10,415 nucleotides of DNA from Deltaproteobacteria bacterium (GTDB lineage Bacteria; Desulfobacterota_B; Binatia; UBA9968): the NCBI GenBank assembly GCA_027297485.1, contig JAPUHZ010000051.1, forward strand, positions 1 to 10,415, given 5' to 3'. The translations under genes and the position numbers were made by a program. Below the pieces are notes generated by a model. That model searched no databases. It saw nothing but the letters and a program-made list of their open reading frames with translations, and was not told the origin of the DNA. Shown here in pieces: positions 1 through 10,415 of the stretch (positions are counted from its first letter, which is position 1; the number at the start of each line of letters is the position of its first letter).

Positions 1-27
1 GGGCGAAATGATTTCATCCTTATAGAA

Positions 28-513
28 CTACTCGACGATGAGGGGGTAGTTCGGTGTAGGATTCAACGGACAGCTATACCAGTAAGATCCCTTTTTCAGG
101 GTGATGGTATAGTCCTTCGTTTGGCCAAGCAGCAGTCCACCACCGGATACCGACGGCAAGACTGCCCGTCCGAGTCCCTGACCCCGGACCCAGAAACCTA
201 ATTCATAAGGGACACTCTTATTTATCACTCGGAAAATCACCTTGCCCGGAGATAGGTGAAGAGGCTTGAACTGCCGTTGAGCAATGCTTTGTTTGTTGAT
301 GGCAACGCAGTCCGCAGCCCTCTTGGAGCGGTAGTCTTTGGGATTGACCTCGCTCTCGACAAATAAGCAGGGGATCTGGGTCAGGGGTATCACTACTACT
401 CCGTTTTCCCTCGTGATGTGGGAGTCGGCCCAGACCGGGCCTGCGGCCAAAAGGAACAGCACCAACGTCCACATTCCCTTTCTTCGAAGCACGCTGGTTC
501 TTCTTTCTGACAT
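28..513 (-). CDS. Secreted cupredoxin-like protein, copper ligands incomplete
   Basis: The 161-residue protein has a basic N-terminus, a hydrophobic segment (about residues 14-25) and a likely signal peptidase site after Ala29, so it should be exported. The rest looks like a small beta-barrel of the cupredoxin kind: a segment around 84-108 resembling 'LSPGKVIFRVINKS', a Gly-rich turn, then a C-terminal strand 'GSYWYSCPLNPTPNYP'. Classical blue-copper proteins end Cys-x-His-x-Met; here Cys148 is present but no His or Met follows it, so a type 1 copper site is doubtful. Cys49 and Cys69 are the only other cysteines. An AGGAG lies 8 nt before the ATG (plus 522-526). It is the last gene of the minus-strand sigma/anti-sigma group, 85 nt after the anti-sigma gene. 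The fold is inferred; the function is unknown. Confidence 0.72.
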   Translation of the reverse strand: MSERRTSVLRRKGMWTLVLFLLAAGPVWADSHITRENGVVVIPLTQIPCLFVESEVNPKDYRSKRAADCVAINKQSIAQRQFKPLHLSPGKVIFRVINKSVPYELGFWVRGQGLGRAVLPSVSGGGLLLGQTKDYTITLKKGSYWYSCPLNPTPNYPLIVE

Positions 514-598
514 TTGTAAATCTCCTATTATATATTAGCTTTAAGGTCTGTTTGGTGCAAAGGGACTCGTACTTCCTTCCCGCCTGGTCAGTTTCTTT

Positions 599-1360
599 TT
601 AACTGCCCATGGCAACCTGCTGTGCAAGGACGAGAAGCTTCTCCTTGGAAAGTGTAGAAGCAAGGATGCAGAGGAGATTCTTCTGTTTCCAAGCGATCAG
701 ATTGACACCTTCCTGGCTATAACTGACAAAATCTCGACTTGAGGCCCGAATAGTTTTGGCACCAGGAGGAGGCGAAATATCTGTCCCCTCAAATTCCTGC
801 GCCAGCAGATACTCTTTCCCTTGCCCTTGATAGACAAAGACCCGCCCTTCTTGCCCTTTAACCCGGTGGGTTTGCCTTGCTAATACACGATAACCCCAGG
901 GGCTCAAATCTAACAGCCGAGCAGCAGGAGTTAACGAAGAACCCGCTTGTGGAGTATTCGCGATTCCCTGTGTTACCTTCTGGTACTGGGCTATCGTATC
1001 GGTGAGGATATCTTCCTGAACCGTGCCCGGCCAAAACAGATAGGGAACAGCCACCATCAGCAAGAGGGCAAAGGCAGCCGCCAACCCATGAGACATATAG
1101 GACCAGCCAAAAATGCCTTCCCTATTGGCCCCTCCTAATTGGTCTAAGAGCCTTTCTTTTAAGCCTGGTCTGGCCGGAATGGGAGAGAGCTTGCGCTTAA
1201 GAGTTTTCTTCACCGCACTCTCCCACAGAAACATTTGCATGCATTTGGGGCATTGGTCGAGGTGAAATTGGGCCGCCAGCCTCTCCCCTGACAAAAGAGC
1301 CCCATCAACATGAGCCGCTATAATTTCTTTATACTCTTGGCAATCTATGATTGTTCTCAC
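599..1360 (-). CDS. Membrane anti-sigma factor with ZAS zinc finger
   Basis: This is the probable cognate inhibitor of the ECF sigma factor encoded 77 nt upstream. The N-terminus has the exact ZAS/zf-HC2 ligand pattern: Cys7, then His33-x3-Cys37-x2-Cys40. Members of this family bind zinc and clamp the sigma factor, and some (RsrA, ChrR types) release it on thiol oxidation. One transmembrane helix spans about 92-110, followed by a periplasmic domain of about 140 residues with no recognised motif, so the signal may be sensed outside the membrane. The start is GTG at 1358-1360, because an in-frame TAG lies a few codons upstream and no ATG precedes the zinc-finger cysteine; an A/G-rich stretch abuts it with poor spacing. 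The stop is TAA. The inducer is not evident. Confidence 0.88.
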   Translation of the reverse strand: MRTIIDCQEYKEIIAAHVDGALLSGERLAAQFHLDQCPKCMQMFLWESAVKKTLKRKLSPIPARPGLKERLLDQLGGANREGIFGWSYMSHGLAAAFALLLMVAVPYLFWPGTVQEDILTDTIAQYQKVTQGIANTPQAGSSLTPAARLLDLSPWGYRVLARQTHRVKGQEGRVFVYQGQGKEYLLAQEFEGTDISPPPGAKTIRASSRDFVSYSQEGVNLIAWKQKNLLCILASTLSKEKLLVLAQQVAMGS

Positions 1361-1437
1361 CCCCTTTCCGGTCTATATTCGGCCTTTGCCTCTTTTCAAA
1401 CAAGGACCAGCTGGTAAAAGGTTCCCCCGCACAATAA

Positions 1438-2058
1438 CTATTCCTTTAGCACCCCTCTTTTTAAGGCATAGTCCTTTAATGCCACCTGAAGCATTCGACG
1501 TCCCCGCGACAGTCTTGAACGAATAGTACCAACAGCACATTCCATGACCTTTGCCGCCTCTTCGTAACTTAGCTCCTCAACATCTACAAGCATGATGGCG
1601 CTCCGGTACTCCTCCGGCAGTTCCTTCAGTGCCTCTTTTACCTCGTGATCCATGAGTCGGGAGAAAAAAATGTTCTCCGGATCACCCTTCTTTGCCTTCT
1701 CACCCTGCTCCACGATGGACTCATAAATTTGGTCGATCTTTTCCCAATCCACCATCTCTGGCTCCCGCCTTTTTTTCCAATACCGGTTGATAAAGAGGTT
1801 CCGCTGGATGGATAGAAGCCAGGCCTTACAGTTCGTTCCAGGTTCGAATTTGTCAAAGAAACGAAGGGCTCGTAGGTAGGTCTCCTGAACCAGATCTTCA
1901 GCCTCGGCCTCGTTCTTTGTGAGGTAAAAAGCCGCAGTGTAAAGATGAGAGAGCTGGGGAAGGGCCACTTGCTCAAACTCCGCCTTTAAGGCCTTCTCCT
2001 TGTTCAAGGAAAATGGCAATAGCCGTCCTCCAGCGAGCGCTTCGGTTGTCCCGTTCAT
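1438..2058 (-). CDS. ECF-family RNA polymerase sigma factor
   Basis: The 206-residue protein has the two-domain ECF layout. Region 2 lies at about 24-100, with the DLVQETYLRAL helix and the 'CKAWLLSIQRNLFINRYWKK' core. Region 4 lies at about 135-192, with 'LPEEYRSAIMLVDVEELSYE' followed by a helix-turn-helix ending in GTIRSRLSRGRRML. Length and motif order are normal for the family. The start is ATG 2056-2058, with AAGGAGAG about 12 nt upstream; the stop is TAG. It lies between the 149-aa hypothetical gene (30 nt upstream) and the anti-sigma gene, consistent with co-transcription from the ECF-type promoter at 2583-2611, which would make it autoregulatory. Similar promoter sites elsewhere in the window suggest it also drives neighbouring redox genes; that is inference. 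Confidence 0.93.
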   Translation of the reverse strand: MNGTTEALAGGRLLPFSLNKEKALKAEFEQVALPQLSHLYTAAFYLTKNEAEAEDLVQETYLRALRFFDKFEPGTNCKAWLLSIQRNLFINRYWKKRREPEMVDWEKIDQIYESIVEQGEKAKKGDPENIFFSRLMDHEVKEALKELPEEYRSAIMLVDVEELSYEEAAKVMECAVGTIRSRLSRGRRMLQVALKDYALKRGVLKE

Positions 2059-2088
2059 TATTTTAGGATCTCTCCTTTTTAGACGGAT

Positions 2089-2538
2089 TTAGCGAGCTGC
2101 CGCTTTCAAAGAGTTCTGTCCTGTTCTTCCGAATGCCACCACACTTGGCTCCTCTCTCGGAGTTAAGTGATAGATCTTGGCTTTGTGATGCTCCGCGACC
2201 TTCCTTTCCTTCCAGCGCAGCAGCCCCTGACGAACGTACTCAGGGTTAAAACCCAAGACCTCACAGATGCTTTCAAATGAGAAGAGCCAATCGCTGTTCT
2301 CCTCATGTATCCACTCCTCCGCCTCACGGAATAGGCTCTTTCCTCTGCTATCTAAAGAGAAGATATATCTCTGGAAACATGCAATGCCGTCCTCCAAGAC
2401 CGCAAGCATAAGACTCTTCTCGGGCTCTAAGTGTGCCCTGCTGCGTAAGTTTTCAAAATACTCAGCGGGAAGAAGAATGTCCGGCTGGAACAGAGAAGCC
2501 ATCCTCCCTTCGACGCTATGGCTTGTTTCATCTTGCAT
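2089..2538 (-). CDS. Conserved hypothetical protein, first gene of the sigma operon
   Basis: The 149-residue soluble protein has no signal peptide. It is mostly helical, with a middle block 'LMLAVLEDGIACFQRYIF', an acidic-aromatic segment EAEEWI near 73, and an HTH-like segment 'FSFESICEVLGFNPEYVRQG' at about 86-106. The last of these resembles the second half of a DNA-binding helix-turn-helix followed by a basic patch (LLRWKERK). I know similar proteins as conserved hypotheticals in genomes of this type but cannot name a function. ATG 2536-2538 is preceded by AGGTGG at suitable spacing, and by an ECF-type promoter whose -10 ends 44 nt upstream. Its position in front of the sigma gene suggests an accessory regulator, but nothing in the sequence proves it. 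Confidence 0.8.
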   Translation of the reverse strand: MQDETSHSVEGRMASLFQPDILLPAEYFENLRSRAHLEPEKSLMLAVLEDGIACFQRYIFSLDSRGKSLFREAEEWIHEENSDWLFSFESICEVLGFNPEYVRQGLLRWKERKVAEHHKAKIYHLTPREEPSVVAFGRTGQNSLKAAAR

Positions 2539-2582
2539 AAAAAACCACCTATCGAGTGCCCGCCTGGGCTAAGCTCTAAATA

Positions 2583-2611
2583 TTTAACCGTTTCCCTCCG
2601 GGGAAAGTTCC
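2583..2611 (-). promoter_or_regulatory. ECF-type promoter of the sigma/anti-sigma operon
   Basis: Reading the minus strand, GGAACTT (2611-2605) is followed by 16 nt and GTTAAA (2588-2583). This is a typical ECF -35/-10 pair, 44 nt before the ATG at 2538. The same GGAAC-18 nt-GTT geometry recurs at five other intergenic sites in the window. Autoregulation by the downstream sigma factor is the natural inference. Confidence 0.68.
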
Positions 2612-2653
2612 TAAAGAACAATTTTTAGCGAAAAAACTCTTTTTATCGCGCCG

Positions 2654-2682
2654 GGAACCTTCTCCATCCGTCTCTTGTTTAG
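2654..2682 (+). promoter_or_regulatory. ECF-type promoter, divergent, for the NPC-repeat protein
   Basis: GGAACCT (2654-2660), 16 nt, then GTTTAG (2677-2682). Spacing is identical to the minus-strand promoter 42 nt away, giving a divergent pair. The ribosome binding site AAGGAGGT (2689-2696) and GTG start (2705) follow closely, so the leader would be very short. The -10 is less perfect than in the opposite promoter. Confidence 0.5.
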
Positions 2683-2704
2683 CTGAGCAAGGAGGTAAAT
2701 AGTT

Positions 2705-3322
2705 GTGATTACAACATTCAGGTTTGGAAGAGCTCTCTTGGCCGGAGTTTTAGGAACAATAGCCATGACCATACTTATGTATGGTTGGCCGATGGTAGGA
2801 CTCCCCCGCATGGACATCATGGCTGTGTTAGGAGGGGTATTCCCTTTCGGTATATCACCCTACGTGATGGGATTGTTCATGCATGTCGGCATAGGGATCT
2901 CACTTGCGCTGATCTATGGCCTGGTTTTTGACCCGTGGCTACCCGGTCCGGGGTGGTTACGAGGCGCTCTGTTTTCCTTTATCCCTTGGGTTTTTGCTAT
3001 AACCCTCCTAGGGCCGAGCCTTCTCGTGGCTAGTGAATTCTTAAAGGGGAAAGAAGCTGTTGCAGCTAATCCGTGTTCTATATCCAACCCATGTGCGGTT
3101 AGAGCCACAAATCCGTGTTCCGCGGATCAACTCAAATCCAACCCCTGTTCCCCTAAAGTAAGCAACCCATGTGGAGTGAAGGCCAATCCCTGTGCTAGTG
3201 CGAACCCCTGTGGAGGCGACAGCGCATCCTCTAATGGACCTTCGCCTGAAGCCATGAGCTTATTGGTCCATTTGCTTTACGGGGTTGTTTTAGGAGTTGC
3301 CTATAGGCCATCAGGTGCCTGA
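2705..3322 (+). CDS. Four-helix membrane protein with seven Asn-Pro-Cys repeats
   Basis: The 205-residue protein has hydrophobic helices at about 9-32, 50-75, 84-109 and 183-200. Between helices 3 and 4 is a hydrophilic loop (residues 122-169) with NPC repeated seven times, separated by 2-7 small or polar residues. Positively charged N- and C-terminal ends suggest both ends are cytoplasmic, which would place the Cys-rich loop in the periplasm; this is a weak topology inference. The helical part resembles small DUF1440-like bacterial membrane proteins. Regularly spaced cysteines next to redox genes suggest metal binding or disulfide chemistry, but the function is unknown. The start is GTG, supported by a strong AAGGAGGT 8 nt upstream; the stop is TGA. 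It appears driven by the ECF-type site at 2654-2682. Confidence 0.87.
   Translation: MITTFRFGRALLAGVLGTIAMTILMYGWPMVGLPRMDIMAVLGGVFPFGISPYVMGLFMHVGIGISLALIYGLVFDPWLPGPGWLRGALFSFIPWVFAITLLGPSLLVASEFLKGKEAVAANPCSISNPCAVRATNPCSADQLKSNPCSPKVSNPCGVKANPCASANPCGGDSASSNGPSPEAMSLLVHLLYGVVLGVAYRPSGA
3068..3211 (+). repeat. In-gene NPC tripeptide repeat tract
   Basis: Seven Asn-Pro-Cys units (first Asn codon 3068, last Cys codon 3209-3211) with variable spacers. Codons vary (AAT/AAC, CCG/CCA/CCC) although Cys is always TGT. The tract therefore looks selected at the protein level and is not a recent DNA slippage product. Confidence 0.9.
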
Positions 3323-3362
3323 GGGCAAGAGATACTCGCTGCGAGACTCGTGGAGTCCCAGA

Positions 3363-3391
3363 GGAACTAAAAGATAAATGGGATTGTTTAA
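3363..3391 (+). promoter_or_regulatory. ECF-type promoter before the 59-aa secreted peptide
   Basis: GGAACTA (3363-3369), 16 nt, then GTTTAA (3386-3391), about 50 nt before the ATG at 3441. It has the same element and spacing as the other ECF-type sites and lies just after the stop of the NPC-repeat gene. Confidence 0.58.
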
Positions 3392-3440
3392 GGATCAGAA
3401 GACACGTCATTAGATCTATTGGATTGGAAGAGGTGAAGTC

Positions 3441-3620
3441 ATGGAAGAGAAGAAGAACATCTGTTTCGTAATATTGAGCCTCGTGATTCTATTGCTCTTC
3501 AGCAATAATCTCCATGCTGAGCCGATGCGAGCCATAGAGAATCTTCGTAGTGAGACAGTCTTTGTTCCCCTGTCCGCACCAGATAAGGGTCGGCTCTTAG
3601 CTCGCTTGGGAGTGAAGTAA
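3441..3620 (+). CDS. Small secreted peptide, 59 aa, unknown function
   Basis: ATG GAA GAG AAG AAG starts a 59-codon frame ending in TAA. Residues 1-5 are charged, about 7-22 form a hydrophobic core (CFVILSLVILLLF), and a signal peptidase site is likely after NNLHA (residue 26), leaving a mature peptide of about 33 residues rich in Arg, Leu and Glu and without cysteine. AGAGGTG (3429-3435) is a well-placed ribosome binding site, and an ECF-type promoter lies upstream at 3363-3391. A promoter, ribosome site and clean signal sequence make it likely to be a real gene despite its length. It could be the stump of a longer secreted protein. I do not recognise a family. Confidence 0.6.
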   Translation: MEEKKNICFVILSLVILLLFSNNLHAEPMRAIENLRSETVFVPLSAPDKGRLLARLGVK

Positions 3621-3623
3621 ATT

Positions 3624-3652
3624 GGAACTTTTACCCACGCGATCGAGTTTTA
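3624..3652 (+). promoter_or_regulatory. ECF-type promoter before the broken short ORF and CxxC/TlpA genes
   Basis: GGAACTT (3624-3630), 16 nt, then GTTTTA (3647-3652), starting 4 nt after the stop of the 59-aa ORF. A ribosome binding site (AAAAGGAG, 3671-3678) and an ATG follow, so a transcript from here is plausible. It may extend into the genes at 3873 and 4086. Confidence 0.52.
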
Positions 3653-3684
3653 ACTATGTGTTGGCGGTAAAAAAGGAGTTTTTC

Positions 3685-3770
3685 ATGAAGATCTAAGCAA
3701 CCCGTGTGTGTTGTGGAGCAGGCTGAGACGGAGTTTCTTTTATCCGAGGCCCTCTTGGGGTAGCTCATGA
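3685..3770 (+). pseudogene. Interrupted short ORF with an NPC motif
   Basis: A good ribosome binding site precedes ATG AAG ATC TAA at 3685-3696, a frame of only three codons. Shifted by one base, the frame from 3696 to 3770 is open and encodes 24 residues beginning SNPCVLWSRLRRSFF, sharing the Asn-Pro-Cys motif with the gene at 2705. A single-base deletion near 3694 would join the two parts into a peptide of about 27 residues. This could be a frameshifted remnant, an assembly error, or coincidence. Confidence 0.3.
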
Positions 3771-3809
3771 GTCCATGTTGCTGTGCTATTTAACAGGCAG
3801 AAGGGGAGA

Positions 3810-3869
3810 ATGGCAAAATCGGGATCGCATTTGCGGGGAAAACGATACGGCTCCAAGGGACGGAGGTAG
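3810..3869 (+). CDS. Possible 19-aa basic leader peptide
   Basis: The ATG at 3810 opens a 19-codon frame with many Lys, Arg and Gly residues, ending in TAG at 3867-3869. Its last codons form the CGGAGG ribosome binding site of the next gene, whose ATG is 4 nt after the stop, an arrangement that could couple translation. AAGGGGAG lies directly before the start, but the spacing is tight. There is no homology argument; it may be chance. Confidence 0.2.
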   Translation: MAKSGSHLRGKRYGSKGRR

Positions 3870-3872
3870 AGA

Positions 3873-4082
3873 ATGAAGTGTCAACGGTGCCTGAGGGGTG
3901 AAGAGGCTCGATACCGGGCGTATACGGATGCCATGGAAATTAAGGCATGTACCTCATGCGCCGAAGAAGCTCGCAGATTGGGCATTGTCGTTATAGCGCT
4001 CGATCTTTGGGACGGAAGAAATGTGGAGGTGAGCGGAGTGAAGGAAATGCATCACAGTCCCATAAATCCTGAATCCATTTAA
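3873..4082 (+). CDS. Small zinc-ribbon-like protein with two CxxC knuckles
   Basis: The 69-residue soluble protein has two CxxC pairs, Cys3-x2-Cys6 and Cys26-x2-Cys29, separated by a short strand-like segment (ARYRAYTDAMEIKAC). This is the layout of a treble-clef or ribbon zinc site, or alternatively a thiol redox pair. After residue 35 the sequence (RLGIVVIALDLWDGRN) has no recognisable motif. CGGAGG (3861-3866) sits 6 nt before the ATG. The stop is only 3 nt before the TlpA-like gene, so the two are almost certainly co-transcribed. The function is unknown; the neighbourhood suggests a redox or metal role. Confidence 0.75.
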   Translation: MKCQRCLRGEEARYRAYTDAMEIKACTSCAEEARRLGIVVIALDLWDGRNVEVSGVKEMHHSPINPESI

Positions 4083-4085
4083 TCT

Positions 4086-4664
4086 ATGGCACTTAAGGTC
4101 ACAGCTTTCATTATTGTCCTGCTTCTAACGCTTGCTGGACTAATACTTTCCAACCAGGATTTTCCCCAAAGACAAAAAACTCCTGTGACCACGGAAGACG
4201 ACCTTTTAACGAAGCTGAGCATTGAACAAATGGACAAGAAGACCTCCGCTCCTGACTTTACCTTAAAGGATCTATCCGGGGAAACAGTCAGGCTCCGAGA
4301 CCTTAGAGGGAAGGTCGTTTTCCTTAATTTCTGGGCTACCTGGTGTCCACCCTGCCGGCTGGAAATGCCTATGATGGAGGAGCTGCACAAGGAGTTCGGC
4401 AATCAGGGGTTAGTCATTTTGGCGATTAACAACCTCGAGGGATCTAAAGAGATCAAGGCATTTATCAAGCAACACAACCTCACTTTCACAACACTTCTAG
4501 ATGAAAAGGGGAAAGTCTTTGAACTCTACCGGACATGGTCCCTCCCTACAACGTATCTCATAGGCAAGAACGGAGAAGTCGTCGGTAAAGTCATTGGTTA
4601 CCGCGACTGGCATAGTGACTTGGCCCAGTCTCTCTTGCGACAACTCCTTGAAGATAGAGCATAA
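4086..4664 (+). CDS. Membrane-anchored TlpA/ResA-type thiol-disulfide oxidoreductase
   Basis: The 192-residue protein has one uncleaved N-terminal helix (about 5-22) that would anchor it facing the periplasm, then a thioredoxin-fold domain from about 53. The entry motif 'APDFTLKDLSGETVRLRDLR' is typical of the AhpC/TSA-TlpA group. The active site is FWATWCPPC with Cys87 and Cys90, followed by the family's LEMPMMEEL helix, and the cis-proline loop SLPTTYLIG is present. Such proteins reduce disulfides in the envelope, for example in cytochrome c maturation. Both catalytic residues are ordinary cysteines, in contrast to the selenocysteine genes downstream. The start follows the CxxC-protein stop by 3 nt without a strong ribosome site of its own, suggesting translational coupling. 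The exact substrate cannot be told. Confidence 0.9.
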   Translation: MALKVTAFIIVLLLTLAGLILSNQDFPQRQKTPVTTEDDLLTKLSIEQMDKKTSAPDFTLKDLSGETVRLRDLRGKVVFLNFWATWCPPCRLEMPMMEELHKEFGNQGLVILAINNLEGSKEIKAFIKQHNLTFTTLLDEKGKVFELYRTWSLPTTYLIGKNGEVVGKVIGYRDWHSDLAQSLLRQLLEDRA

Positions 4665-4701
4665 GAAACTTCAGAGATGTATGATTTGAATATTAGCATA
4701 C

Positions 4702-4802
4702 CCCGCGGCTAGCCGCGGGCACATAACCGATGGGGTTTCCAAAGGGGAGAAGTGGCAGCTCTTCCCTTTGGTCGACCTCGGGGTTTCAAACCCCGTGGTC
4801 GA
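4702..4802. repeat. Cluster of three inverted repeats (REP/MITE-like)
   Basis: Three dyads lie in 101 nt. First, CCCGCGGCT/AGCCGCGGG (4702-4719) is a perfect 18-nt palindrome. Second, CCAAAGGG (4739-4746) pairs with CCCTTTGG (4764-4771). Third, TCGACC-T-CGGGGTTT (4772-4786) pairs with AAACCCCG-T-GGTCGA (4788-4802), imperfect only at one T-T. A second GGGGTTT at 4732-4738 could pair alternatively with AAACCCC at 4788-4794. No U-run follows directly, so a simple terminator is unlikely. Dispersed intergenic repeats often look like this. Confidence 0.6.
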
Positions 4803-4843
4803 TATTGATTGCTGCGGCGAAATCATTTTTTTTCAGGTTATTG

Positions 4844-4872
4844 GGAACTCTTAATTTACCAATTCCGTACTG
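4844..4872 (+). promoter_or_regulatory. Weak ECF-like site before the CMD selenoprotein
   Basis: GGAACTC (4844-4850) is followed, at the same 16-nt distance as the other sites, by GTACTG (4867-4872). The -35 and spacing match but the -10 is poor. It would leave a leader of about 120 nt before the ATG at 4998. Offered only because of the identical geometry. Confidence 0.25.
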
Positions 4873-4997
4873 AGCAGTATCTCAACCGCACTCCACCCTT
4901 ATCCCCGACACAGAGATGGCTTGTCTGGATACCCTTATTGGGCTAAAGGGGTAAGTAGGCTTAGTCCAAAGGCGATTTAACAGGGAGGATTCTGAAA

Positions 4998-5597
4998 ATG
5001 CCTTACATCAAAACCATCGATGAGTCCGAGGCCACCGGGCAGATTAAGGAGATCTACGAGAAGAGAAGGGACCACCACACGGGAAAGGTCTCCAACATCG
5101 CGAAGCTCTTTAGCCTTCGTCCAGATCTATTGGAGGCTCAGCACAGGTTCTCGCGGGCCATTCAGTTTGGCGGTTCCAGCCTTGGGGTCAAGAGAGAGGA
5201 GATGATCTCCGTTTTGGTTGGCTCTCTCCTCCATTGCAGTTATTGAACGCTCTCTCACGGAGAGTTTCTCCGTAAAGAAGTGGGGGGGGATTACGACCTC
5301 GTCATGGCCATTGCGCACGATTACCGCCATGCGGGTTTGGATGAGAAAGATCTGGCCATGCTGGAGTACTCTGAAAAGATTACGCTTAGACCCAGTGAAA
5401 TTGTTGGGAAAGATATGCAGAGACTTCGGGAGGTCGGTTGGACAGATAAGGAGATTCTCAATATCGCTGCAGTGAGCTGCTATAGAAATTTCATTACCCG
5501 CATGGCTGATGCCCTTGGAGTAGAACTCACCGAGGACTATAGAAATCTACGTAAGGATTACGTAGACTCCCTGATGGTAGGGAAGAGGTTATTGTAA
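4998..5597 (+). CDS. AhpD/carboxymuconolactone-decarboxylase-like selenoprotein (CxxU)
   Basis: The frame is open for 199 residues if the UGA at 5244-5246 is read as selenocysteine (residue 83). The segment LLHCSY-U-TLSHG gives Cys80-x2-Sec83-x3-His87, the AhpD peroxidase motif C-x2-C-x3-H with the second Cys replaced. Glu68 lies 12 residues before Cys80, the same spacing as Glu118 to Cys130 in M. tuberculosis AhpD, so the whole catalytic set is present. Both flanking parts match the peroxidase-related CMD family, and total length is normal for it. No signal peptide is seen, so it should be cytoplasmic. A SECIS-like hairpin follows at 5257-5273. GGGAGG lies 9 nt before the ATG. The deiodinase-like selenoprotein begins 27 nt downstream, probably in one operon. 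The likely role is disulfide or peroxide reduction; the substrate is unknown. The alternative is two pseudogene halves. Confidence 0.87.
5257..5273 (+). promoter_or_regulatory. SECIS-like hairpin of the CMD selenoprotein
   Basis: ACGGAG (5257-5262) pairs perfectly with CTCCGT (5268-5273) around the loop AGTTT. The loop begins 16 nt after the UGA and has G at its second position, meeting the usual bacterial SECIS rules (loop 16-37 nt from UGA, G in the first two loop bases). An A-T pair can shorten the loop to GTT. Confidence 0.75.
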
Positions 5598-5624
5598 AAA
5601 ACTCTATAAATAGGGAGTTGGCCT

Positions 5625-6353
5625 ATGGATTCTTATAACTACGATTCTTATGGGCAATGCGATGTAGGGGCGCCCGATTTTCGCTCAGTGGCGCAAGTAG
5701 GGACAAAGGCGCCGGATTTTGCCATAACCGACCTTGACGGCAAGAGAATTGCTCTCGCGGATTTCAGAGGCAAAAAGCACGTGCTGTTAGAGTTCGGGAG
5801 CGTCACTTGACCTCCCTTTGTGGGGGAGGTTCCTCCACTAAGCAGCCTCCATGAAAAGTACCAACCAAAGGGATTTGAATTTTTTATTATCTATGTCCGT
5901 GAAGCCCACCCGGGAGAGAACTTTCCGCACCATGCCTCCTTTGAAGACAAGCTTGCCCACGCGAGGAAGCTGCGGGATTTAGAGGGGGTGAAGATCCCGA
6001 TCCTTGTGGATGACCTGCAAGGAAGCACGCACGAGGCCTACGGTCTTCGTTCCAATATGGTCTATCTGATCGACCGTGAGGGGACCGTAGTTTACAAGTC
6101 GGACTGGACGGATGCCGTCGAGCTGGACGGCATGTGTAAGAGTCTCATCCGTCTGGATGAGAAAAGGGCACGCCATGTGCCCATTATCCGCAAAGGCTCT
6201 TCTGAAAGGCTTCATTGGATACCCATGGATCGAGCGCTGCGCGAACGAGTCTATCAACGCTCCGGAGAGAAGGCGATTAAAGACTACCTGAATGCGACGG
6301 GTCACCTTCCCAACGCCACAGATGCGGAAAAGTCCAAGGTGAGGTTGTCTTGA
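5625..6353 (+). CDS. Iodothyronine-deiodinase-like selenoprotein, thioredoxin fold
   Basis: The frame covers 242 residues if the UGA at 5808-5810 is selenocysteine (residue 62). The context LLEFGSVT-U-PPF followed by IIYVREAHP (Glu93-Ala-His-Pro96) is the signature of the T4 deiodinase family, whose animal members have GS-x-T-U-PPF and an EAHP segment and use Sec to remove iodine. Bacterial relatives share the redoxin fold; their substrate is generally unknown, and iodide chemistry should not be assumed. Residues 27-55 (GTKAPDFAITDLDGKRIALA) are the usual redoxin entry strand. There is no signal peptide, so it is probably cytoplasmic. A C-terminal extension of about 50 residues after 190 has no recognised motif. 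AGGGAG precedes ATG 5625. It ends with TGA at 6351-6353, read here as a true stop since no Sec-type motif or hairpin follows. It probably shares an operon with the CMD gene. Confidence 0.88.
5820..5838 (+). promoter_or_regulatory. SECIS-like hairpin of the deiodinase-like selenoprotein
   Basis: GTGGGGG (5820-5826) pairs with CCTCCAC (5832-5838), seven pairs including one G-U, around the loop AGGTT. The loop starts 16 nt after the UGA and has G at position 2, the same distance as in the CMD gene. The loop resembles the AGGUCU of the E. coli fdhF SECIS. Confidence 0.75.
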
Positions 6354-6357
6354 AGAG

Positions 6358-7428
6358 CTATTTCTTCCTTAGGTACAGCTCTGTGTTTGGATAGTGGTCC
6401 ACCCACCCGAACCAAAATGAGGGAGTAGTCGGTAGGGGCTTAAGTTTTTTGCCCTTTAATTTTCCTTGGACCGCGATACCGGTCAGGCCATTCCAAACTG
6501 AGCCTGTAGTGTCCTCAACAAGGAGAAACCCCTTTTTATCCGACCGTTGGACTTTCTTGAAGGAAAGGTTTTTTCCTTCCACCTTCCTTTTGAAAATCAC
6601 ACCTGTCGCAGTCTCAGCGTCAAAGACAACCAGGAGAGGTACCCCGTGGAAGGTATCGTTCATGACAGACTCACGACTCAGGGCCGAGAAGGGATAGGCC
6701 TTGGCCTTGTCATTGAGAACTAACCCCAGGACATATTCTTTGGGGTAAATTCTTTTATCCGACAGACGGGTGGGGATGATGCCGGTGTCACGAGAGCGGT
6801 AATAGGACTCATAGGGATCGCGGAGGGAGCCAAAGAGAGGCTTTCGCCCGCTGTTTAGGACCTTGGAGCTAGGATAAAGCCTTCTCCAAGTCTCCCAACG
6901 GGTGAACATGGACTGGAGAGGCTTGAGTTGTTCTCCCTTAAGTGGACCCCTTATTGCCGCCCCGACCAAATGACTCCATAGGCTCTCTGTTTGATGATCA
7001 TACATGATGAGAGAATTGGCATGCAGTTTTCCGGAGACCCCAAACGTCAGCTCTTTTCCTGCGATTCGACGGTCATACACGATGGCCGTATAGCAGAGCG
7101 GTCACCAGGTGACCGCAATAGGTATACCTCCAACCTTATCGTTGACGATTTCACGGCGGCTTAGGGTGGGAACAGGATAGGCACGACTATCGCCCGCTAT
7201 CTCCACACCGACTACAGCATCCTTACCGCTAAGCCAGGAGGCTTTGTTTCCCTCTTCAAACGAAGGAGAAAGTATAGCCGGAATAGCATCCTTGGGCAGA
7301 ACAGTGACAATCTCGTCAGGACGTAGATCTGCTCCCCCTGCAACGGATACATTAAGCAGCACCCAAAGAGAGAGGGTAAAATAAGATATTTTACGCAGGC
7401 AAAACACTCGGTTCTTACAACAACCCAT
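6358..7428 (-). CDS. Secreted DUF3179-family selenoprotein (UPLC)
   Basis: A 356-residue frame results if the UGA at 7104-7102 is selenocysteine (residue 109). DUF3179 proteins carry CPLC-x-x-A followed by a Y/F-DRR segment and 'ELTFGVSG'. Here the text reads IAVTW-U-PLCYTAIVYDRR and then the same GKELTFGVSGKL, so Sec replaces the first Cys of the CxxC pair (Sec109-Pro-Leu-Cys112). Other family landmarks follow: MYDHQTESLWS, SVWNGLTG, and a C-terminal WVDHYPNTELY. The N-terminus has a basic region and hydrophobic core, cleaved near residue 30-33, so the protein is exported. The family's biochemical activity is not established; UxxC suggests thiol redox chemistry. A SECIS-like hairpin lies at 7069-7089 and an ECF-type promoter at 7438-7466. 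The ribosome site is poor. The stop is TAG, 4 nt from the convergent gene's stop. Confidence 0.87.
7069..7089 (-). promoter_or_regulatory. SECIS-like hairpin of the DUF3179 selenoprotein
   Basis: On the minus strand ACGGCCAT (7089-7082) pairs with ATGACCGT (7076-7069), eight positions with one C-A mismatch, around the loop CGTGT. The loop begins 20 nt after the UGA and has G second. Confidence 0.68.
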
Positions 7429-7437
7429 CCTTTTTAA

Positions 7438-7466
7438 AATAACACTTACGTCGGCAAGAAAGTTCC
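7438..7466 (-). promoter_or_regulatory. ECF-type promoter before the DUF3179 selenoprotein
   Basis: Minus strand: GGAACTT (7466-7460), 16 nt, GTTATT (7443-7438), inside the 46-nt gap after the peroxiredoxin-like gene. The -10 ends 9 nt before the ATG at 7428, so a transcript from it would be nearly leaderless. That is unusual and lowers confidence, although read-through from the upstream promoter would also supply this gene. Confidence 0.45.
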
Positions 7467-7474
7467 CAAAAAGG

Positions 7475-8065
7475 CTAAGGGATTTTTCTCAGGGCCCGCA
7501 AAATCTGCTTATTGCTCGGCCTCACAATATAATCCACCTCAACAAACCGCCAGCGGATCACTCCCTGTCTGTCAATGATGTAGGTGGCGGGATGCGGCCA
7601 GCCAGGGCCATTAGGATTAAAAATGCCATAGCGGTCGATGACTTTGTGGTTTTTGTCCTCGAGCATGGGAAGATTGAATCCTCCAGGAGATCCCCCACCT
7701 AGATGCTGAGCAAACCTTTTTGAAGTCTGATGGTCGTCGACACTCACTGCCAGGATTTGGACCTCGTCCTTCTCTTTCTTGGTCAAAAGGGTGTTCAGCT
7801 TCACGAGCTGTTCTGTACAATAAGGTCACCAATGGCCACGATAAAAAACCAGGACTACATTCTTCTTACCCCGAAAGTCAGAAAGTGAAATTCTCTTCCC
7901 GTCCGTATTCTCAAGGGTGAAATCGGGCGCCTTATCTCCAAGCTTAACCCTTTCCAGGTCGGTCGGTTTTAAATTCGCCCCGTCAGTAGGACCCAATTGG
8001 GCATAGATTGGTGAGACGGAGAAGAAGACAACAAAAACTATGCCTATGAGACGATTTTGCAGCAT
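7475..8065 (-). CDS. Secreted peroxiredoxin-like selenoprotein (UPYC)
   Basis: The 196-residue frame includes the UGA at 7828-7826 as selenocysteine (residue 80). VFYRGHW-U-PYCTEQL matches the RGxWCPYC active site of the AhpC/TSA-type peroxiredoxin-like group, with Sec in place of the first Cys (Sec80-Pro-Tyr-Cys83). Residues 1-22 form a signal peptide ending PIYA, so it acts in the envelope. The redoxin entry segment KAPDFTLENTDGKRISLSD lies upstream of the active site, and the family's HPATYIIDRQGVIRWRFVEV lies near the C-terminus. It probably reduces peroxides or disulfides. A SECIS-like hairpin lies at 7796-7810, and a strong ECF-type promoter (8082-8110) precedes the gene, with CGGAGGG as ribosome site before ATG 8063-8065. 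The DUF3179 selenoprotein follows after 46 nt. The stop is TAG. Confidence 0.89.
7796..7810 (-). promoter_or_regulatory. SECIS-like hairpin of the peroxiredoxin-like selenoprotein
   Basis: On the minus strand CAGCT (7810-7806) pairs with AGCTG (7800-7796) around the loop CGTGA. The loop begins 20 nt after the UGA, with G second. Loop and distance nearly match those of the neighbouring DUF3179 gene (CGTGT, 20 nt). Confidence 0.7.
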
Positions 8066-8081
8066 AAACCCTCCGATTATA

Positions 8082-8110
8082 TTTAACGCCCCTCACCTTA
8101 TTTTGGTTCC
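8082..8110 (-). promoter_or_regulatory. ECF-type promoter before the peroxiredoxin-like selenoprotein
   Basis: Minus strand: GGAACCA (8110-8104), 16 nt, GTTAAA (8087-8082), continuing to TATAA as in the sigma operon's own promoter, which also reads GTTAAATAT. The -10 ends 16 nt before the ATG at 8065 and leaves room for the CGGAGGG ribosome site. It is the best evidence that the local sigma factor controls a selenoprotein gene. Confidence 0.65.
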
Positions 8111-8123
8111 TTCCTTTCAACCT

Positions 8124-8930
8124 CTAGAGACCTCTTTTTATCTGCTGGACGGAACGCTTTCGCAAAGCCTGGTGGGAAGCCCATCGGAAAAGGTTCGGCA
8201 TGAGCCTTTTGAAAAAACATGCCAAGGCTAACCAGAGTGGGATAACCACCTCAAACTTCTTCCTCACGATCGCTTGGATTATCACCCGTGAGACCACATC
8301 CGTATTCAGCACCAAAAAAGCGGGGGCATTAGGGGCTATATCGTCAAAATGCAAGTGGAATTTTGTCCGAACCGGGCCCGGGCAAACCACGGAGACATGA
8401 ATACCCAGAGGTCTGAGTTCATGGTAGAGGCTCTCGCTCAGGCCAATCAAAGCAAATTTAGTGGCAGAGTAGGTTGCCACATTCGGAAAGCCGATCTTTC
8501 CCGAGACCGAGGAGATGTTGACGATATGGCCGGACCGTCTCTCTATCATCGGCGGAAGGACTTCCTTGATACAATAAACTGCGCCCAATAAGTTCGTCCG
8601 TACCATTCCTTCGATGGAGTCCAAGGGAAGGTCAGAAAAACTCTTATGAATGCCGAAGCCGGCATTGTTGATTAGGATATCGATCTTACCGTACTCCTCG
8701 AGGACCCTCTTGACCATCGCCTTGACCTGCTGAGGGTCACCCACATCGCAAACATGAACAGCAGAGGATGGACTAGCATTCCTCATCTCAGACAGTGTTG
8801 CTTGCATTCGTTCCTGAGAACGACCACAACCAACCACCGTTGCCCCTCTCTTGGTCAAGTCGACCGCGAGCTGTCGACCGATGCCACTGGAAACTCCCGT
8901 AATAAGGATCACCTGCTTTTTGAATTCCAT
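8124..8930 (-). CDS. Short-chain dehydrogenase/reductase (classical SDR)
   Basis: The 268-residue protein has every classical SDR landmark: the cofactor motif TGVSSGIG at 11-18, NNAG at 88-91, catalytic Ser141 in ISSVSG, and Tyr154-x3-Lys158 in YSATK, followed by CPGPVRT at 183-189. Cofactor preference leans to NADP(H), judging by Arg37 in the CGRSQER segment after the second strand. A C-terminal hydrophobic stretch (about 228-242, VVIPLWLALACFF) and a basic tail resemble membrane-associated SDRs of the DltE/YqjQ kind. The substrate is unknown. The ATG at 8930 has only a weak AAGG ribosome site. The epimerase-type gene lies 50 nt upstream, so the two are probably co-transcribed; no link to the selenoproteins is evident beyond position. 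The stop is TAG. Confidence 0.93.
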   Translation of the reverse strand: MEFKKQVILITGVSSGIGRQLAVDLTKRGATVVGCGRSQERMQATLSEMRNASPSSAVHVCDVGDPQQVKAMVKRVLEEYGKIDILINNAGFGIHKSFSDLPLDSIEGMVRTNLLGAVYCIKEVLPPMIERRSGHIVNISSVSGKIGFPNVATYSATKFALIGLSESLYHELRPLGIHVSVVCPGPVRTKFHLHFDDIAPNAPAFLVLNTDVVSRVIIQAIVRKKFEVVIPLWLALACFFKRLMPNLFRWASHQALRKRSVQQIKRGL

Positions 8931-8980
8931 AAGGACCTTAACTTTTTTTTAGACAGCTCACTTGAGACACTGCTGTAACT

Positions 8981-9889
8981 TTACGATGAGAGGCAGTCCT
9001 GAAGGGCTTCCTGGACATTTGGATATTTGAAGTTATACCCCAACCTTTGGGCTTCTGCCGGCAGCACGCGTTGGCCGGTAAGAAGCATCTCGGCCATTTC
9101 TCCTAAAAGCAGGCGCAGTACGAAAGAAGGCACCGGGGCCCAAGAGGGTCGGTGTAGGACCTTGCCCAAGGTCTTACAAAACTCCTTCATCGTAACCGGG
9201 TTAGGGGCGGTGGCATTGACAACCCCATGGGCGTTGGGATGCTCCAGCAAGAATAGAATCAACCCGACCTCGTCCTCCAATTGAATCCACGACATCCACT
9301 GGCTCCCTGTTCCAAGAGGCCCGCCAGCGAAGAGCTTAAATGGAGGGACCATCTTGGCCAGGGCCCCACCCCCTTTTCCAAGGACAATGCCGGTACGTAG
9401 CCTTATGACTCGAAGACCGTACTCTTCCGCTTTAAGTGCCTCTTTCTCCCACTCGAAGCAGACCCGGGATAAAAAGTCCGTGCCCTGTTCAGTCGTCTCT
9501 GTAAGCATCTCATCTCCATGGGGACCGTAATAACCGATAGCTGAGGCATTGAGCAAAACTTTCGGTTTCTCTTTGGCTTTGGCAATGGCTGCCACCAGGG
9601 CACGTGTCGTGTCGATTCGACTTGAGCGCAATTTTCCTTTTTGCGTTTCGGTCCACCTCTTCCCGGCTATAGGCTCACCTGCCAAGTGGATCACGCCATC
9701 CGCCCCATCGACGACTCTCTCCCAGGGGCCGTCAGACCCCAACTCCCAGATTACGCCTTTTATGCCGTGTGAGATTGTGTCGGGCAGTGGTGAGCGGGTT
9801 AGCAGAGTGAGGGAATGGCCCTGTTCCAATAGCAGAGTACAGAGGGCCGATCCTATAAACCCTGTTCCTCCTGTAATGACTAGTTTCAT
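8981..9889 (-). CDS. TIGR01777-family (YfcH/SDR39U1-like) NAD(P)-binding epimerase-type protein
   Basis: The 302-residue protein is an extended SDR. GGTGFIG (7-13) is the Rossmann cofactor loop, 'GVIHLAGEPIAGKRWTE' and 'LLNASAIGYYGPHGDEML' are signatures of the YfcH/SDR39U1 group, and the C-terminal DUF1731 segment (LLLGEMAEMLLTGQRVLPAE, to about 298) is complete. Length is normal for the family. Its physiological substrate is not established. The start is ATG 9887-9889, with CAGGAGA about 9 nt upstream; the stop is TAA. It heads a minus-strand pair with the SDR gene and diverges from the FabF-type gene with roughly 55 nt between starts. Confidence 0.93.
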   Translation of the reverse strand: MKLVITGGTGFIGSALCTLLLEQGHSLTLLTRSPLPDTISHGIKGVIWELGSDGPWERVVDGADGVIHLAGEPIAGKRWTETQKGKLRSSRIDTTRALVAAIAKAKEKPKVLLNASAIGYYGPHGDEMLTETTEQGTDFLSRVCFEWEKEALKAEEYGLRVIRLRTGIVLGKGGGALAKMVPPFKLFAGGPLGTGSQWMSWIQLEDEVGLILFLLEHPNAHGVVNATAPNPVTMKEFCKTLGKVLHRPSWAPVPSFVLRLLLGEMAEMLLTGQRVLPAEAQRLGYNFKYPNVQEALQDCLSS

Positions 9890-9943
9890 GACGCTGTCTC
9901 CTGATATGGTTTCAAATGCTTAACTTAAGTGGCATTGAGTGCT

Positions 9944-10415
9944 ATGAGTCCTATGTCGGATGAGATCAAACTATTTCCCGACCGAAGTGTCAAGATGCTG
10001 AAGGACAATGGAAAGGCCTCGCGAAGGAGAGTTGTCGTTAGTGGGTTAGGGGTCATGAGCCCCAACGGCATAGGAACTGAGGCCTTTTGGCAGGCTACCC
10101 GCAGCGGAACGAGTGGCGTAGACACAATTAGCTCTTTCGATCCTTCCTCTCTTCCTTGCCAGATTGCGGGTGAAATTAGAGATTTCCGGCCAGAGAACTA
10201 TTTTTCTCCCAAGGAGCTAAAGCGCGTGGCTCGGTCGGTCCCTCTGGCCATTGGAGCTACAAAAGAAGCGCTACAATCCGCCCGGGTTGATTTCGAGACC
10301 ATGACCTTGGAAGAGAAGCGCTCATGGGGAGTGATTCTAGGAAGCGGGGGGGGAACACCTGATTTTACGGAGGAACAATACCGACTCTATTTCAGTGATC
10401 AGCTAAGAAAGGCAA
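9944..10415 (+). CDS. fabF: FabF-type 3-oxoacyl-ACP synthase, partial at right edge
   Basis: The open frame runs off the window end. From about codon 25 it matches the N-terminus of condensing enzymes of the FabF/KAS II group: RRRVVVSGLGVMSPNGIGTE, then SGVDTISSFDPSSLPCQIAG and 'LKRVARSVPLAIGATKEAL', with 'WGVILGSGGG' near the edge. The enzyme would extend acyl-ACP chains by condensation with malonyl-ACP. The catalytic Cys and two His lie beyond the window, so FabF and related polyketide or secondary ketosynthases cannot be separated. The start is uncertain: in-frame candidates are GTG 9929, ATG 9944, ATG 9953 and ATG 9995, none with a clear ribosome site; an in-frame TAA at 9926-9928 sets the upstream limit. 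Confidence 0.87.
   Translation, partial: MSPMSDEIKLFPDRSVKMLKDNGKASRRRVVVSGLGVMSPNGIGTEAFWQATRSGTSGVDTISSFDPSSLPCQIAGEIRDFRPENYFSPKELKRVARSVPLAIGATKEALQSARVDFETMTLEEKRSWGVILGSGGGTPDFTEEQYRLYFSDQLRKA

Follow-up and report, generated by a model that had tools for sequence, protein, structure and literature searches.

Four adjacent predicted selenoprotein genes near a SigR-like sigma factor operon in a Deltaproteobacteria bacterium: a candidate envelope redox defence locus

Are four neighbouring genes, each interrupted by a single in-frame UGA, damaged genes or selenoprotein genes, and, in the latter case, do they share a task? This question is raised by a stretch of 10,415 nucleotides (nt) from a Deltaproteobacteria bacterium (assembly GCA_027297485.1, contig JAPUHZ010000051.1, positions 1 to 10,415), called the window hereafter, in which the following predicted genes, two on each strand, converge:

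4998..5597, + strand: CMD/AhpD-like selenoprotein gene (CMD); UGA at codon 83 (5244-5246); TIGR01926, CxxU
5625..6353, + strand: deiodinase-like selenoprotein gene; UGA at codon 62 (5808-5810), stop codon UGA; PF00837, FGSVTUPPF and REAHP
6358..7428, - strand: DUF3179 selenoprotein gene; UGA at codon 109 (7104-7102); PF11376, WUPLC
7475..8065, - strand: peroxiredoxin-like (PRX) selenoprotein gene; UGA at codon 80 (7828-7826); PF00578, HWUPYC

We conclude with great confidence, from sequence comparison, that CMD, deiodinase-like, DUF3179 and PRX are genuine selenoprotein genes, because the UGA codons are conserved, the hairpins that follow them covary and the selenocysteine (Sec) machinery is found in relatives. 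The locus as a whole is likely to be a selenol-based envelope redox defence island controlled by an extracytoplasmic function (ECF) sigma factor.

In-frame UGA codons, hairpins and selenocysteine machinery

Re-reading of the frames showed that the coordinates, strands and UGA positions of the original prediction are correct: each of the four genes has a single in-frame UGA and no other internal stop, and 4 nt separate the stops of the converging deiodinase-like and DUF3179 genes. The true start of DUF3179 is possibly a GTG at 7407, and the N-termini of PRX and DUF3179 look, by eye, like signal peptides. The proposal that each UGA stands at the redox Cys of its family, with homology on both sides, agrees with the Pfam scores of the proteins read through and with Cys homologues (e.g., P0001, with VTWCPLC). 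Indeed, DUF3179 reaches 287.9 bits against a gathering score of 27 for PF11376, PRX 130 against 26 bits for PF00578 (AhpC-TSA, with Sec at the conserved Cys position) and the deiodinase-like protein 68.9 against 27 bits for PF00837 (T4_deiodinase, with the TUPPF site present); when the latter was aligned to the mouse DIO3 structure 4tr3, FGSxT(U)PPF and EAHP matched. CMD passes its Pfam gathering score narrowly (23.6 vs 23 bits) and the TIGR01926 cut-off with 107.3 vs 81.8 bits, its motif being CSYU. Two narrower models gave scores below their cut-offs, namely NCBIfam deiodinase_rel NF038285 for the deiodinase-like protein (89.7 vs 250 bits) and PrxU NF040737 for PRX (55.8 vs 270 bits), and none of the four proteins matched a Tso or Sao NCBIfam model at E up to 0.001. 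The structure model of DUF3179 shows two Rieske-like barrels, the first of which contains Sec. No pair of the Rieske [2Fe-2S] ligands C-x-H and C-x-x-H occurs in the window protein, nor in those columns of the DUF3179 alignment A1 that are invariant or nearly so, and the modelled likeness to Rieske proteins is one of fold only. The protein had no relative among PDB sequences at E up to 1, and its model had no Foldseek match at E up to 0.001.

The same codons are UGA in relatives. Metagenome-assembled genomes titled Deltaproteobacteria carry UGA at the same codon in DUF3179, PRX, deiodinase-like and CMD genes. In the order of the nearest relative (genome G010), of which 35 genomes were scanned and in which the match rows include paralogues, TGA was found in 21 of 26 DUF3179 rows (one also with TAA; three of the five rows without TGA are second halves of UGA genes), in 26 of 28 CMD rows, in 19 of 29 deiodinase-like rows (one also with TAA) and in 59 of 60 PRX-type rows, the latter coming from 32 of the 35 genomes and including one with two TGA. 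Where deiodinase-like paralogues lack the UGA, the residue is Ser or Cys. The locus L215 (G035:C307) holds tandem deiodinase-like copies, one paralogue having a real TGG at the Sec site. All 29 aligned DUF3179 sequences have Cys or Sec at position 109, and P0001 is a natural Cys orthologue with 73-74% identity. A genome scan for DUF3179 gave 62 loci. The DUF3179 genes of L008 (Tectomicrobia) and L010 (Anaerolineales) also carry UGA, and those of the remaining phyla have Cys or no stop at that codon; tRNA-Sec is present in both genomes, and selB was over cut-off only in that of L008.

The truncated annotation expected from the UGA codons was borne out for DUF3179 and the deiodinase-like gene by database proteins that start just past the UGA. 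The active-site stretch is missing in 119 of the 120 DUF3179 proteins listed (of 1188 matches) and in 118 of the 120 deiodinase-like proteins listed (of 275), the other two carrying Trp; among the matches listed, the first residue lies a few residues after the UGA in at least 105 DUF3179 and at least 113 deiodinase-like fragments, in searches whose length limit favoured C-terminal fragments. An all-against-all scan for UGA frames (404 kb) gave 31 groups of at least two frames, most of them antisense or chance frames, and the groups kept were PRX/deiodinase/Prx-like, DUF3179, CMD, OsmC and one PrxQ-like pair. A fifth family with UGA, OsmC-like (GFUMFSQL/AFULLTQI), was observed in or near the cluster of relatives (L012:8623-9120, L003:2432-2980, L059, L215, L216 and L218), the L012 and L003 genes belonging to OsmC by Pfam.

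The third line of evidence concerns hairpins resembling selenocysteine insertion sequence (SECIS) elements, for which the best hairpin downstream of each UGA whose loop starts with G was taken. Such hairpins follow all four UGAs, with covariation in CMD, deiodinase-like group A and DUF3179; an Rfam search of the window gave a single match, judged to be due to chance.

5257..5273, + strand: SECIS-like hairpin of CMD; 7 bp, loop GUU
5820..5838, + strand: SECIS-like hairpin of the deiodinase-like gene; 8 bp, loop GGU
7070..7088, - strand: family-wide SECIS-like hairpin of DUF3179; 6 of 7 pairs in the window (one C-A mismatch), loop CGUGU
7092-7076, - strand: overlapping 6-bp hairpin of DUF3179, with the best score in the window itself
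7796..7810, - strand: SECIS-like hairpin of PRX; 5 bp, loop CGUGA

Counted from the UGA, the loop begins at index 20 in all 20 deiodinase-like contexts and in 26 of 27 contexts of CMD. The 18 closest contexts of PRX have it at 23 or 24, and those of DUF3179 at 18, 19 or 23. Mean hairpin scores are 15.7-18.9 at the UGAs vs 8.1-10.8 elsewhere in the same genes. Pairing was scored on fixed columns, the cells counting sequences and not events. The CMD hairpin has 98.9% of cells paired and 10 double-change cells at 2 pairs, that of deiodinase-like group A 100% and 12 at 4 pairs, that of DUF3179 91.3% and 13 at 4 pairs, and that of PRX 98.9% with no double changes, while slid versions of the hairpins pair at most 66.7%. 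At least 6 of the 7 DUF3179 pairs form in 18 of 18 distinct UGA rows vs 0 of 49 Cys homologues, and the share of cells paired in Cys homologues is 52.0% for PRX (n=5), 21.2% for the deiodinase-like family (n=10) and 28.6% for CMD (n=1), a comparison biased toward structure, since the Cys homologues are less closely related and the UGA sequences themselves served to define the structure.

Among the genomes reached through the loci, tRNA-Sec was over cut-off in 9 of 14 vs 5 of 14 control genomes, and selB in 9 of 14 vs 2 of 14. Over the 35 genomes of the order, tRNA-Sec was over cut-off in 25 vs 3 of 14 controls, and selA in 32 vs 1 of 14 controls (E. coli). In G010, the nearest genome, selA and selB are present and no tRNA-Sec passes the cut-off, and 11 of the 12 genomes G001-G012, which carry UGA in DUF3179, PRX or deiodinase-like genes, have tRNA-Sec, selB or both. 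Since most of these assemblies are split into many contigs, absences are weak evidence.

Several observations weigh against the reading as selenoprotein genes. Hairpins scoring at least 10 occur at 55-72% of control positions, two of the 32 PRX-type contexts (paralogues L197 and L226) have no hairpin by the criteria used, no drop in folding energy is seen at the UGA of DUF3179, and the PRX and deiodinase-like group B stems, which scarcely vary (group B never), are uninformative. The search for the Sec machinery covered the genomes of relatives; G001 has none of tRNA-Sec, selB and selA over cut-off, and G009, a chromosome record, has tRNA-Sec and no selB over cut-off. In view of these hairpin results, the evidence from hairpins is that of position and covariation.

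Sigma operon, promoter sites and conserved neighbourhood

The remainder of the window presented here comprises a putative SigR-like sigma operon and a few small genes, in addition to sites resembling the promoters of SigR:

28..513, - strand: g1, no Pfam match, presumed last gene of the sigma operon
599..1360, - strand: zinc-finger anti-sigma factor, C-x25-H-x3-C-x2-C; best NCBIfam match RsrA
1438..2058, - strand: ECF sigma factor, SigR/SigH-like; best NCBIfam match SigH_actino
2089..2538, - strand: g4, no family match, presumed first gene of the sigma operon
2705..3322, + strand: g5, DUF6789-type, one stretch of it being Cys-rich with NPC repeats; in L007 and L012, relatives of g5 are found between PRX and DUF3179
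3441-3620, + strand: g6, small protein
3873-4082, + strand: g7, small four-Cys protein, followed by trx
4086..4664, + strand: ResA-like thioredoxin (trx), WCPPC, no UGA; below the ResA model cut-off
8085..8110, - strand: GGAAC-N18-GTT before PRX
7441..7466, - strand: GGAAC-N18-GTT before DUF3179
2586..2611, - strand: GGAAC-N18-GTT before g4
2654..2679, + strand: GGAAC-N18-GTT before g5
3363..3388, + strand: GGAAC-N18-GTT before g6
3624..3649, + strand: GGAAC-N18-GTT 223 nt before g7
4844..4869, + strand: weak near-match GGAAC-N18-GTA upstream of CMD

The zinc-thiol motif C-x25-H-x3-C-x2-C was found in all six linked anti-sigmas examined, and its residue spacing is, presumably, also that of RsrA itself. 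The layout of the promoter sites in the window equals the one given in excerpts of PMC3489674 for SigR of S. coelicolor, GGGAAT(G/C)-16-(C/G)GTTG, and SigH of M. tuberculosis, (G/T)GGAA(C/T)A-16-(C/G)GTT. The window holds six GGAAC-N18-GTT vs 0.31 expected (maximum 4 in 2000 simulations with second-order composition). In relatives (413 kb, partly overlapping), 45 sites have spacing 18 vs 4-13 sites at each other spacing from 8 to 30, and 39 of spacing 18 are left in a non-overlapping set; unrelated loci (210 kb) have 0. When the pattern is loosened to GGAA[C/T], spacing 17-19 and GT[T/C/A], a site lies upstream of 9 of 16 PRX genes (three at spacing 17), 5 of 9 DUF3179 genes, 4 of 4 sigma genes (one at spacing 19), 3 of 4 g5 and the single trx, and of none of one g4, one g1, eight SDR and nine NAD genes. 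These counts leave out rows whose upstream region falls outside the contig (L099; L104, L009; L097; L139, one L149 row), before whose removal they stood at 10/17 for PRX, 6/11 for DUF3179, 5/5 for sigma and 1/15 for CMD. Sites precede the sigma operon in the window, L007, L012, L217, L224 and L247, and L005/L103 have one of spacing 19. Further genes that follow such sites encode thioredoxin-like and NPC-repeat proteins, a methyltransferase, a multihaem cytochrome and a PrxQ-like protein with UGA, and several promoter-like sites stand without an evident gene.

As for the gene order, L007 and L012 share the run NAD-epimerase-like, SDR, PRX(UGA), g5 and DUF3179(UGA), with the sigma and anti-sigma genes a few kb on. 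L012, which belongs to G010, is the nearest relative: past DUF3179 it has OsmC(UGA) and then, on the opposite strand, CMD(UGA) with 84% identity, directly past the stop of which a frame matches the last ~30 residues of the deiodinase-like protein. This remnant indicates that the deiodinase-like gene was probably lost in L012 from the same place. The order in L012 (CMD, deiodinase remnant, DUF3179, g5, PRX) keeps that of the four genes of the window, with OsmC(UGA) inserted. Between PRX and g5, L012:6631-6729 is a short PRX-like fragment, perhaps a remnant of a duplication. In L003, OsmC, a Prx-like gene, PRX and DUF3179 are consecutive and all carry UGA, and partial DUF3179 genes lie near a deiodinase-like gene in G004 (L059) and near a PRX gene in G012 (L060). 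The expectation that the same four families stand side by side in related genomes thus held in part, through L012 and pairs of genes in a few genomes, and not for an intact foursome.

Some further observations concern the genes behind SigR-like sites. In L007:6573-7904 and L012:10404-11708, a multihaem cytochrome gene and an NPC-repeat gene point away from each other, and the gap holds promoter-like sites. The NPC-repeat small proteins and the DUF6789-type protein, perhaps metal-binding, recur beside selenoprotein genes and behind such sites (L007, L012, L219 and L243). In L233 (G010:C45), a PrxQ-like UGA gene (TPTU) with a signal-peptide-like N-terminus follows GGAACTT-N16-GTT, and similar sites precede genes in L211, L223 and L255, from three genomes, that of L223 being a methyltransferase by Pfam and the other two looking alike by eye.

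Proposed role and competing readings

The signals near the four genes suggest that the cluster, at least in part, serves as a stress defence based on selenium and under its own regulator. In the mechanism that we propose, the hairpin past each UGA would let SelB and the Sec-tRNA insert selenocysteine. A pair like SigR/RsrA, made of the ECF sigma and the zinc-thiol anti-sigma, would sense thiol oxidation, and the sigma factor would then switch on PRX, DUF3179, g5 and its own operon from the GGAAC-N18-GTT promoters. The selenol PRX may reduce envelope peroxides and regain its reduced form from thioredoxin-like proteins (e.g., the ResA-like protein encoded upstream), while DUF3179 would be either a partner selenol reductase or a substrate of PRX, and the AhpD-like CMD and the deiodinase-like protein would act in the cytoplasm. 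The parts of this proposal differ in strength. ECF control of PRX and DUF3179 is probable, and we lowered its standing because one genome-wide promoter control exceeds the count (see below); a role in peroxide or redox defence is somewhat favoured, and a single pathway for all four proteins is possible and somewhat less likely than not. Still more tentatively, a redox-sensing ECF pair may command exported selenoproteins (PRX, DUF3179 and PrxQ-like) together with thioredoxin, cytochrome and Cys-rich NPC partners, DUF3179 then being a Rieske-like selenol redox enzyme and not an Fe-S carrier.

A number of results speak against an ECF-controlled island. The promoter pattern was first spotted by eye in the window and then counted, so that the count in the window is descriptive, and the looser site is rare upstream of CMD (1 of 13) and the deiodinase-like gene (1 of 18 evaluable orthologues). 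Across four genomes, GGAACTT-N16-GTT has 48 matches vs 25 (shifted), 24 (reversed) and 55 (reversed shifted), and a genome-wide excess over the controls is not shown in these genomes. The contig with the cluster (~0.5% of the genome) holds 5 of 16 matches in G006 and 3 of 9 in G010, both contigs being already known to hold sites before the genome-wide count, and the DUF3179 contig holds 0 of 12 in G011 (4 lie on C216) and 1 of 11 in G002. The sigma factor scores below the SigH_actino cut-off (TIGR02947, 161.5 vs 251.55 bits) and the anti-sigma below that of RsrA (TIGR03988, 34.7 vs 62.5 bits). Finally, among the genomes compared for co-location, none carried the full set of four genes in intact form.

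The strongest competitor holds that the four selenoproteins are real and unrelated in function, their adjacency being a by-product of a genome rich in Sec-bearing thiol enzymes. We regard it as a serious possibility, albeit not the favoured one. The order is indeed rich in redox genes with UGA, as the PRX-type rows illustrate, and CMD and the deiodinase-like gene are seldom on a contig with PRX or DUF3179 and seldom have the promoter site. Against this, 6 genomes have DUF3179 and PRX on one contig and at most 12 kb apart (among them G035, with the Cys form of DUF3179 at a distance of 9.4 kb), 2 have CMD and the deiodinase-like gene this close, and 2 the deiodinase-like gene and PRX (DUF3179 and CMD, CMD and PRX, and DUF3179 and the deiodinase-like gene in 1 genome each); moreover, L012 keeps the order of the window, and PRX and DUF3179 share their promoter type with the nearby sigma operon. 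The dedicated selenol redox module spanning cytoplasm and envelope, as first proposed, stands better for PRX and DUF3179, by shared promoter type and co-location, than for CMD and the deiodinase-like gene, which are linked by position in few genomes; the latter two are tied to the island by position more than by promoter.

It is rather unlikely, in our view, that the promoter sites serve another ECF sigma factor, or that the anti-sigma senses envelope or metal stress and not thiol oxidation. Many zinc-finger anti-sigmas are not redox sensors, both members of the pair fall below their subfamily cut-offs, and the Cys-rich NPC-repeat proteins behind the sites could bind metal. A SigR/RsrA-like pair acting on these sites is nevertheless preferred, given the recurrence of a site before the sigma operon in the loci named above, the zinc-thiol motif in six of six anti-sigmas and SigH_actino as the best match of the sigma factor.

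That the UGAs are sequencing errors or marks of pseudogenes is very improbable. A single premature stop in each gene is what such a case classically shows, and G035 has the deiodinase-like paralogue with TGG. The same codon is UGA in many genomes, however, the hairpins are conserved and the family scores are full-length, and the database proteins P0002 (99%) and P0122 (95%) are fragments that start past the UGA, similar and not identical to the window, which argues against a sequencing error private to it. This reading was rejected as contradicted by the UGA conservation, the hairpins and the family scores.

Weakest of all, and close to negligible, is a reassignment of UGA to Trp or Cys in this lineage, in favour of which could be cited the Trp at the site in 18 of the 120 PRX database proteins listed (of 296; the site is present in 113, with 94 Cys, 18 Trp and 1 Ser), all 18 (P0241-P0256, P0258 and P0262) coming from the source 'jgi' and being probably gene calls that read UGA as Trp, and which was rejected as contradicted by the Sec genes in relatives (selA, selB and tRNA-Sec) and by the distribution of UGA, found at redox Cys sites, in frame in none of the 10 remaining genes of the 14 tabulated in the window, and as terminal stop in two of the 14 (g5 and the deiodinase-like gene), so that UGA is also a stop here.

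Comparison with known systems

The original prediction knew of no described locus with this combination, and none was found in the literature searched, which did not cover Haft and Tolstoy 2025 on selenoprotein neighbourhoods. The kind of locus is not new, since tables in PMC13188914 and PMC9312934 already list all four families as selenoproteins and adjacent selenoprotein genes, two to six together, appear in excerpts of PMC13188914 and PMC2398784. As far as our searches went, the novelty lies in the set of genes brought together, in the fact that an uncultured order conserves it in part and in its probable control by an ECF sigma factor. The locus joins four predicted selenoprotein families, of which DUF3179 and the bacterial deiodinase-like proteins are so far without an assigned role, to a candidate regulator that can be tested, and it would open to direct tests what DUF3179 does and how the transcription of bacterial selenoprotein genes is controlled. 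A further point of interest is the uncultured order itself, where UGA is present in many redox genes and where most DUF3179 and deiodinase-like proteins are truncated in the database searched.

Among the known gene groups, the Global Ocean Sampling reads (PMC2398784) hold neighbouring selenoprotein pairs, two genes per read, and the excerpts of that text name neither a deiodinase-like or DUF3179 member nor a regulator, whereas the window has these. In the frhA-frhD-hdrA-glpC (four genes), Sao (six) and Tso (three) operons, selenoprotein genes are adjacent, as here, and belong to other families than the four of the window, according to excerpts of PMC13188914. With regard to the single proteins, CMD does not differ in kind from the AhpD-like selenoproteins of TIGR01926, being over the cut-off and having CxxU. 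The deiodinase-like protein is a bacterial member of the PF00837 deiodinases and lacks the Cys three residues past Sec, in contrast to the UxxC listed in a review. DUF3179 shares family and motif with the selenoproteins of PF11376 (UxxC/T) and is modelled here as two Rieske-like barrels without cluster ligands. Finally, the regulator has in common with SigR/RsrA of Streptomyces and SigH/RshA of other actinobacteria the promoter layout, the best sigma model and the zinc-thiol motif, and differs from them in that the pair falls below the subfamily cut-offs and in that its predicted promoter sites precede selenoprotein genes.

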